Shown here in pieces: positions 31,448 through 34,193 of a stretch of DNA of 64,000 nt. The number at the start of each line of letters is the position of its first letter. The first letter of the stretch is position 1. The notes below the pieces were generated by a model. It saw only the letters and a list, made by a program, of their open reading frames with translations. It had not been told where the DNA came from and did not search any database. Position numbers and translations under genes: made by a program. Source of the stretch: Promethearchaeota archaeon (lineage in GTDB: Archaea; Asgardarchaeota; Thorarchaeia; Thorarchaeales; Thorarchaeaceae); contig WJMJ01000079.1 in assembly GCA_014728035.1 (NCBI GenBank), positions 1-64,000 on the forward strand, given 5' to 3'.

Positions 31448-32551
31448 TCAGAGTTTTCTCTTTCCCAATAGGAATTCTTCAACCCATCTCTCTGCACGGT
31501 ACATTGTAGTGGGTGTTGGAGGCATTTTGAATCCGTAAGCTGATATCGATTCTAATGCACCTCCTATCCCTCTTTTTAGGGCTAGTTTAGTTCCACGAAT
31601 GGCATCCATGAGGATTGGTCCAGCGTTAGGACCATCAGTGACCTCCATTCGAATATCAATTTTTATTGGCGCTCCACCAAATTGTCTTCCATGAATGTAG
31701 AAATACGAATCTCTTGCATTGTCCATGAACGGTACAAAGTCAGATGATCCTGCTACCAGTGGTGCATCATAAGGAAGATCCTGGCTTATCGCCCCACTCT
31801 TTACACCCCTTTTTCTCATTCGCCCTCGATAATGTGAGTCCAGCGATTCTGCTCCACCTCCAACATCCAACTGGTAACTTTTGTCAACTTTTACCCCGCG
31901 TGCAACTAGTAACTGCAGAATATTTCTGTGAAGAACAGTTGATCCAAGTTGGTCCTGAATATCATCTCCGACCAATGGGATTCCTTTTTCTTCAAATTTC
32001 TTTGCCCATTCTGGGTCAGAAGCAATTCTAATTGGCACTCCATTTATGAAAGCTATACCTGCATCAAGACATGCTTGTGCATAGAATTTTGTTGCTTCCT
32101 CTGCAGAACCTGGAAGAAGACAAATTCCCATTTCTGCACCAGAATCTTTCAGAATTTTACCTACATCCTCCTCAGATTCTTTTGAGACCTTAGCTAAGAC
32201 CTGAAGCTTCTCATCAACTCCATCTTTGATTGGACCCTTTGAAACCTTCAATCCCATCTTTCCAATTTTTGCAAAACGCATTACATTGTTGGGGTCTGCA
32301 AAGATTGCTTCAGATAAATCTACTCCAACTTTGCCTTCAACAACGTCAAAGGCAGCAACGAACTTGATATCTTCAACATGATATCCTGCAAAATCTGGGT
32401 GATTAAGTCCTATACTGTCGTCTCCCGCTCGTGTGTTCTTATAGTATTCCACTCCCTGGATGAGAGCGCTAGCGCAATTTCCTATACCAAATAATGCTAC
32501 CTTTATTCCGTTCAATTGTATAACCTCTTTTATGATAGAGGAATCTAACAA
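31448..32551 (-). CDS. ino1: Myo-inositol-1-phosphate synthase
   Basis: IKVALFGIGNCASALIQGVEYY, VAAFDVVEGKVGVDLSEAIF, GDDIQDQLGSTVLHRNIL, YQLDVGGGAESLD. Confidence 0.9.
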   Translation of the reverse strand: MLDSSIIKEVIQLNGIKVALFGIGNCASALIQGVEYYKNTRAGDDSIGLNHPDFAGYHVEDIKFVAAFDVVEGKVGVDLSEAIFADPNNVMRFAKIGKMGLKVSKGPIKDGVDEKLQVLAKVSKESEEDVGKILKDSGAEMGICLLPGSAEEATKFYAQACLDAGIAFINGVPIRIASDPEWAKKFEEKGIPLVGDDIQDQLGSTVLHRNILQLLVARGVKVDKSYQLDVGGGAESLDSHYRGRMRKRGVKSGAISQDLPYDAPLVAGSSDFVPFMDNARDSYFYIHGRQFGGAPIKIDIRMEVTDGPNAGPILMDAIRGTKLALKRGIGGALESISAYGFKMPPTPTTMYRAERWVEEFLLGKRKL

Positions 32552-32718
32552 ATTGACGATGGCACATCTTTTAAAGTTTTATGACCATAGAATAGTCGAG
32601 TTATCAAGTAATCTCCAATTACACCGTCAACTGTAGAATTCTTGTATGAGCTAATATCATTGAATATGTTGTACTGGTTAATTGATATTTTTAGCTAATT
32701 GATTGTGGATAGCTAACA

Positions 32719-32727
32719 CTTATAGAG
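32719..32727 (+). promoter_or_regulatory. TATA box-like element for the ncRNA candidate
   Basis: CTTATAGAG centred about 26 nt upstream of 32749. Confidence 0.45.
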
Positions 32728-32748: not shown

Positions 32749-32970
32749 GGACGCACGGATGATCCCGTTGCTCTTCATATCGTTCAATGAATGATATGAC
32801 CGATTTGCAGAAGTCTATGTGAATGTCCTGGATGGAGATTTACCTCTCACCTGATGGTTCAGAGAAGGATGGCAGCAAGTTGGTAACGAGCCTTTACGTT
32901 CATAATGAGGGTGGACCTCAAGTCCATAAATGGACTACCAAGTTTGTGGGATTGCCTGCGTCCTCTTTTT
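32749..32970 (+). ncRNA. Structured RNA candidate, family not identified
   Basis: Terminal helix GGACGCA (32749-32755)/TGCGTCC (32957-32963); 10-bp hairpin 32776-32798; GAGG/CCTC hairpin 32907-32919; AGTCCA-TAAA-TGGACT 32921-32936; T5 run at 32966; no long ORF in 32552-33032. Confidence 0.55.
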
Positions 32971-33032: not shown

Positions 33033-34193
33033 CTATTCTAGACTCTTGGCTAAAAGGTCAACCACATCGACAACACCAATGCTGCTTTCGGCCATCTTCT
33101 TCCCAGAAAGTAGGTTATTTTCACAAAAAGGACAAGCTGTCGCAATGATGGATGCACCAGTGTCTTCTGCTGAACGTATTCTATCCGCACCTATTTTTTT
33201 CGAGAGTTCTGAATCGTATGAACGTAGGCCTCCACCTGCTCCACAGCAAATAGCAGTTTCACGAATTGTGTCCATCTCAACAAGCTCAACGCCAGGTATA
33301 GCTTTGAGAACTTCTCTTGGACTATCATAAACACCAAGTTCTCTACCCATGTGACACGGGTCGTGATATGTAACTGTCACATTCTCAATCTCTTTTGGTT
33401 GCAATTTCCCTGTTTTGATTAATTCTTCTGCGTATTCCAAAATATGCAAGGTTTCAGGGAGTTCAATATCAAATCGTTCCGGGTAATCTTTGCGAAGCGT
33501 TTTCAAACACCCTGCACAGGAAACAATGATTTTTTCAGCTCCTGATTCTTTAATTGATTGTTCTACTTTCTCTGCGTTTCTCTTTGCTTCATCAACTTTT
33601 CCAGTTCTGATCATAACCGAGCCACAACAAGGTTCATCCTCTAGTATTGCAAAATCTACGTTACTAGCTTTAAGGATGGTAGCTGTATGTCTAGCTGCTG
33701 CTGGCAAGCGCATTCCTGCTGTACAACCGACGTAATAGAGAATCTTTCCAGTTTTAGGAACACTAAATCCTAATTCTTCAATCCATCTTCTTTTTTCTGA
33801 ATTATCCTCAGAATATGGATTATCATTAATGAGGATTTTTTCAGTTAGGCTATCACGGATTTCGTTTGGGATGTCACTTAGCACCTGTCTGACCTGTTCT
33901 AGACTCTCAGCAGGATTGAATTCAGCAGCACAAATCTGAGTGCAGTTCCCACAAAGTGTGCATTGAAACAATGATTCCGCATTTTCAGGAGTCTTATCAA
34001 GCTCACCATTCAATAGAGCAAGGGCCACCTGAATTTTGCCACGCATAAAACTGGTTTCAAATCCGCTGGAATTCTTCCAAACCGGACAAATACCATCAAA
34101 TCCTTTAGCCTCATACACTGCATTTCTGCAAATACCACATCTTCTGCATTGCAAAAGTTCTTCCTTAAGATATTCTAGGTCTATCTCAGTCAT
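33033..34193 (-). CDS. (Fe-S)-binding protein with two CCG domains (GlpC/GlcF/HdrD-like)
   Basis: CRRCGICRNAVYEAKGFDGICPV, CTLCGNCTQIC, YYVGCTAGMR, DEPCCGS, YHDPCHMGRELGVYDSPREVL, AICCGAGGG. Confidence 0.85.
   Translation of the reverse strand: MTEIDLEYLKEELLQCRRCGICRNAVYEAKGFDGICPVWKNSSGFETSFMRGKIQVALALLNGELDKTPENAESLFQCTLCGNCTQICAAEFNPAESLEQVRQVLSDIPNEIRDSLTEKILINDNPYSEDNSEKRRWIEELGFSVPKTGKILYYVGCTAGMRLPAAARHTATILKASNVDFAILEDEPCCGSVMIRTGKVDEAKRNAEKVEQSIKESGAEKIIVSCAGCLKTLRKDYPERFDIELPETLHILEYAEELIKTGKLQPKEIENVTVTYHDPCHMGRELGVYDSPREVLKAIPGVELVEMDTIRETAICCGAGGGLRSYDSELSKKIGADRIRSAEDTGASIIATACPFCENNLLSGKKMAESSIGVVDVVDLLAKSLE

Follow-up and report, generated by a model that had tools for sequence, protein, structure and literature searches.

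What is encoded between two enzyme genes, both on the - strand, that leave a gap near the middle of a 64,000-nt stretch of a Thorarchaeota (Asgard archaeon) genome (the whole analysed stretch is termed the window)? According to the original prediction, this gap holds a discrete, previously unannotated RNA gene equipped with its own promoter and terminator. We find that the segment is almost certainly a real RNA gene (Table 1). On balance we favour the reading that it is an independent, Thorarchaeota-specific gene, transcribed from a TATA promoter, whose product would act in trans as a ribonucleoprotein scaffold. The gene is about 215 nt long here and about 215-250 nt across its homologues. As predicted, it has no open reading frame other than a trivial 50-amino-acid frame, and insertions and deletions among the homologues have lengths that are not multiples of three.

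Table 1 Features of the RNA locus and its flanking genes, in window coordinates
Feature	Position	Strand	Basis or remark
Structured non-coding RNA gene, 5' arm to 3' arm of closing helix	32749..32963	+	Folding z score, homologues, covariation, border identity
TATA-like promoter box CTTATAG	32719..32725	+	TTAT at -29 from 5' arm
Oligo-T TTTTT, likely transcription end	32966..32970	+	T-rich stretch shortly 3' of closing helix in homologues
P1 closing helix, 5' arm GGACGCA	32749..32755	+	Pairs with 32957-32963; 96.9% of cells paired
P1 closing helix, 3' arm TGCGTCC	32957..32963	+	Perfect complement of 5' arm
P2, 5' arm GCUC	32770..32773	+	Partner GAGC at 32888-32891; 95.2% of cells paired, few sequence changes
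P2, 3' arm CGAGC	32887..32891	+	Covariation count
P3 hairpin (10 bp)	32775..32799	+	Sequence variable, structure kept
P4 stem domain around three-way junction	32800..32883	+	Upper P4: both-side changes in 4/4 pairs
P4a hairpin GAAU-G-UCC...GGA-G-AUUC with internal purine mismatch	32819..32843	+	Near-invariant sequence
P4b hairpin CUCUC-ACC-loop-GGU-UCA-GAGAG	32844..32864	+	100% and 96.3% of cells paired
Three-base UCA bulge of P4b	32859-32861	+	Kept through helix changes
P5 hairpin YAC..GUUC / GAGG..GUG, less certain	32893..32915	+	Single-sequence segment folds
P6 hairpin GGAC-CUCRA-(stem)-ACCAA-GUYU, less certain	32913..32945	+	Shares bases with P5
myo-Inositol-1-phosphate synthase gene, divergent neighbour	31448..32551	-	PF01658; not part of RNA gene
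Fe-S (CCG-domain) oxidoreductase gene, convergent neighbour	33033..34193	-	PF02754; not part of RNA gene

The + strand of the segment has a predicted folding energy of -87.2 kcal/mol, against -59.4 +/- 4.3 kcal/mol for 200 dinucleotide shuffles (z = -6.5). The - strand reaches z = -2.1 against dinucleotide shuffles, and the homologues likewise fold better than their shuffles (z from -1.9 to -8.5). The overall fold comprises a closing helix (P1), an inner helix (P2), a hairpin (P3), a domain built around a three-way junction (P4, P4a and P4b) and two further hairpins (P5 and P6).

Covariation was counted over 38 predicted pairs of P1 to P4b in 27 homologues; P5, P6 and lower P4, which itself aligns too poorly for pair counting, lie outside this formal count. 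Paired combinations occupy 94.1% of cells, compared with 36-46% when the structure is slid along the alignment, a control that removes relatedness, and 83.7% in shuffles, a control that leaves relatedness in. Both sides change in 24 of the 38 pairs, the counted structure being derived in part from the same 27 sequences, and the covariation score is 0.347 versus 0.165, with 0 of 500 shuffles as high. At the level of the alignment, covariation confirms the predicted closing helix along with the remaining main helices, and a covariation-supported fold of this kind is what an independent structured non-coding RNA gene would be expected to have. That the segment is no gene but an intergenic stretch structured by chance or at the DNA level is extremely improbable: the both-side changes, the conserved promoter box and the family-wide conservation described below all speak against this idea, which the covariation has in practice already refuted.

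The perfectly complementary 7-bp closing helix of the original prediction is present and covariation-confirmed, with GGACG/CGUCC replaced in homologues by GGGCG/CGCCC and GGAUG/CAUCC. So is the predicted 10-bp hairpin, P3, in which both sides change in 7 of 7 tested pairs and 85.9% of cells are paired. Two shorter hairpins had also been proposed; these exist, but as parts of the richer fold described above. The 5' arm of P2 is missing in genus g5. P4a is 97.1% paired, with both-side changes in five pairs. The UCA bulge of P4b is retained where the surrounding helix has become UCCUC/GAGGA (loci L057 and L067) or CCUU/AAGG (L069), and P4b is not recognisable in the diverged homologue L068. In P4a and P4b, paired bases are more conserved than pairing alone requires. 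This, together with the persistence of the UCA bulge through changes of the helix around it, is the pattern that a recognition site would show.

P5 and P6 were assigned from single-sequence folds and covariation judged by eye. P5 competes locally with a GAGG/CCUC hairpin. The inner stem of P6 forms in most homologues; in genus g5 the outer helix of P6 has been replaced by ACGAGUC/GAUUCGU. Three further candidate interactions were rejected: pairing of the 3' tail GUCCACC with an internal GGUGGAC, which is lost in genera g1 and g5; pairing of GAAUGU with AYGUUC, which fails in part of genus g6; and a kink-turn in P6 or P4b, where the GA pairs are unconserved.

The borders of the predicted RNA coincide with sharp borders of conservation in a comparison with the sister species, in which identity is 88% over the RNA, 71% over the promoter stretch, 62% upstream of the promoter stretch and 38% in the 3' flank. 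The TATA-like box foreseen upstream of the 5' arm recurs as TTA[TA] at -28 to -30 in 27 of 27 aligned homologues, and the run of T residues foreseen after the 3' arm follows behind a short spacer. Judged by these sequence features, the RNA has its own putative promoter and defined ends. Together, the covariation, the conserved boundaries and the promoter box at a fixed distance argue for a discrete gene, as originally proposed.

The synthase and oxidoreductase genes each adjoin the RNA in most homologue loci. The upstream neighbour is a gene other than the synthase in L050 and L062, however, and the downstream neighbour varies too. As the synthase is usually but not always the divergent neighbour, the RNA is not a leader of the synthase gene. 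An element like TTTAAAGTTTTATGNNCATAGAATAGT recurs between the synthase gene and the RNA (32552-32600 in the window, and in homologues). It is also found in a genome that lacks the RNA (G009, described below), suggesting that it is probably the synthase promoter. Inositol-1-phosphate synthase is encoded twice in several genomes of the family, by an RNA-adjacent copy about 74-83% identical to that of the window and by a second paralogue, located away from the RNA, that is about 43% identical to the window's copy.

In about ten homologue loci the next gene downstream, encoded on the same strand as the RNA, is a single-stranded DNA-binding protein (SSB)-like OB-fold gene (PF21473) (for example L045, L049, L058, L061 and L068), and its product has an RGG-rich tail in several of them. 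This arrangement is what would be expected if the RNA were a cis-regulatory leader, a riboswitch-like 5' UTR element of a neighbouring gene. We regard that explanation as very unlikely, because a same-strand coding gene does not follow the RNA in all members: in the window and in many homologues both neighbours are on the opposite strand, and the upstream and downstream neighbours vary. The T-rich end directly after the fold also argues against a leader, as does the presence of several copies of the OB-fold family in most Asgard genomes. The RNA motif is absent from the regions upstream of the SSB genes of family f10. The OB-fold protein was considered as a dedicated partner of the RNA and is a weak candidate, given that its family is multi-copy across Asgard archaea.

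The sister species contains an 89% match in a BLAST-type search, which also gives weaker matches in further genera of their shared Asgard family. R1, a covariance model built on the core, finds the RNA in 32 genomes of the Candidatus Thorarchaeota family. A second model (R2), built from 27 sequences, finds it in 36 of the 47 genomes of the family, which represent 11 of its 13 genera (E <= 0.001); a further pass of R2 over 39 genomes used looser filters. At the same threshold R2 detects the RNA in 0 of 184 other Asgard genomes. One match outside the family, in G107, was rejected: its E value went from 0.001 with R1 to 0.76 with R2, and it lacks the RNA ends and looks coding-like. Weak R2 matches in other Asgard families (E 0.02-1) were likewise set aside, the conserved 3' motif and the ends being absent from those that were read. 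An exact-pattern scan of 85,462 species, which may omit records of the window's own genome, returned 17 stretches, of which 15 are labelled Candidatus Thorarchaeota. The other two, from Sneathiella and Porphyromonadaceae, are about as many as chance predicts on a rough estimate.

Among the 11 family genomes that lack a match, the synthase copy that normally lies beside the RNA is absent in eight and cut at a contig end in two, so in these ten the RNA locus is probably unassembled. Only in G009 (genus g9, 93% complete; locus L095) are both neighbouring genes present around a short spacer that contains no RNA. The retention of both neighbours without a detectable RNA suggests that the function is dispensable, or has been replaced, in genus g9. 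There is one copy of the RNA per genome except in G025 (L011 and L065), where one of two copies is on a 541-bp contig, and G021 (L070 and L086), where one of two copies is at a contig edge; these duplicates may reflect strain mixture or contamination. The RNA gene is lineage-specific and conserved across the Thorarchaeota family. Computation shows that its borders are discrete, that its multi-branched fold is conserved, that a promoter box stands at a fixed distance from it and that genomes usually carry one copy.

Could the gene encode an RNA of a known kind? Rfam yields no match for the window segment or for any of 13 homologues. The RNase P RNA model finds nothing between 31000 and 35000 (E up to 10) or in the 13 homologues, and the genome's RNase P RNA is on another contig (G000:C151, E = 3e-47). 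Similarly, the Archaea_SRP model matches neither the segment nor the 13 homologues, and the SRP RNA of this genome is also elsewhere (G000:C25, E = 1.6e-20). These results bear out the original view that the RNA is neither of these two. The loose resemblances noted in the original prediction, CAGAAGTC, TCAGAGAAGGATGGCAGCA and GGTAACGAG, are not RNase P or SRP motifs: homologues conserve none of these sequences beyond a UUCAGAG portion and the GAG(C) that belongs to P2. The 5S rRNA model (RF00001) has no match at the RNA locus, the 5S gene being at G000:C9, and the window contains no tRNA or tmRNA that ARAGORN detects.

The RNA might instead belong to an established archaeal type from which it has strongly diverged, for instance the H/ACA or C/D guides with their L7Ae sites. 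It is a multi-hairpin archaeal RNA of plausible size, and the asymmetric internal loop of P6 is loosely kink-turn-like in some homologues. We nevertheless consider such an identity quite unlikely. There is no Rfam match, the GA pairs of a kink-turn in P6 are unconserved, the 3' end is in the closing helix rather than at an ACA box, and neither a conserved ACA tail nor conserved C/D boxes are seen in the homologues. A search for rRNA targets found only cross-genus complementarity of at most 8-10 bp to 16S or 23S rRNA, within conserved stems; this comparison is coarse, using partial rRNA loci from the sister and one genome with flanks. Long complementarity is not consistently present, so nothing points to an rRNA guide. 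In the sister genome, the match to 16S rRNA (L160, G001:C2:589938-592348) spans 2411 bp rather than the approximately 1535 bp of its relatives, which suggests about 870 bp of additional sequence in the form of an insertion or an intron.

In the favoured reading, transcription would start from a TATA promoter belonging to the RNA gene itself, and the transcript would be released at the U-rich end. P1 and P2 would hold the molecule closed. A protein or a tertiary contact would probably dock at the three-way-junction domain, with its P4a and UCA-bulged P4b hairpins, both nearly invariant in sequence. We infer a scaffold that acts in trans because the strongest constraint falls on the sequence of paired elements around the three-way junction and bulge, and because the neighbouring genes vary. 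Counting against it are genus g9, where G009 has no detectable RNA despite both neighbours, and the conserved P5 loop and P6 internal loop, which may serve instead to base-pair with a target RNA. Such loops, for example the A-rich P5 loop or CUCRA/ACCAAG, would be the working parts of a regulatory RNA acting in trans on mRNAs by base pairing, and AYGUUCA, the A-rich loop and ACCAAG are indeed conserved and single-stranded. We judge this alternative improbable given the large rigid fold, in which conservation is strongest inside helices, and given that the rRNA complementarity noted above is short, inconsistent and confined to conserved stems.

To the sensitivity of the models used, the RNA appears to be a new family that is unrelated to any in Rfam, although what it does biochemically may yet prove familiar. 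Whether it would constitute a new class of stable ribonucleoprotein RNA of Thorarchaeota origin, with a housekeeping-like role and a UCA-bulge protein-binding hairpin undescribed for other RNAs, we see as evenly balanced. Text searches, to which most subscription papers are closed, returned neither a description of this RNA nor any catalogue devoted to Asgard-specific structured RNAs. Because it covaries, occurs throughout its family and comes from relatives of eukaryotes, the RNA offers a concrete target for RNA sequencing, pull-down and structural work.

Compared with known systems, the Thorarchaeota RNA resembles archaeal RNase P RNA (RF00373) in being a single-copy, multi-branched archaeal RNA with its own gene, in a size range of 200-330 nt, but it coexists with a separate RNase P RNA in the genome and is unmatched by that family's model. 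Like archaeal SRP RNA (RF01857), it is closed by a long helix and branches at the opposite end, whereas the genome's SRP RNA lies elsewhere and the family model again leaves the Thorarchaeota RNA unmatched. Structured non-coding RNAs uncovered in bacteria by comparative genomics, such as OLE (PMC9723947, PMC12286853), belong to another domain of life, are about 600 nt long rather than about 215-250 nt, and show no similarity to it by cmscan; like the Thorarchaeota RNA, however, they are standalone, strongly covarying and lineage-restricted, and were discovered from sequence before their function.
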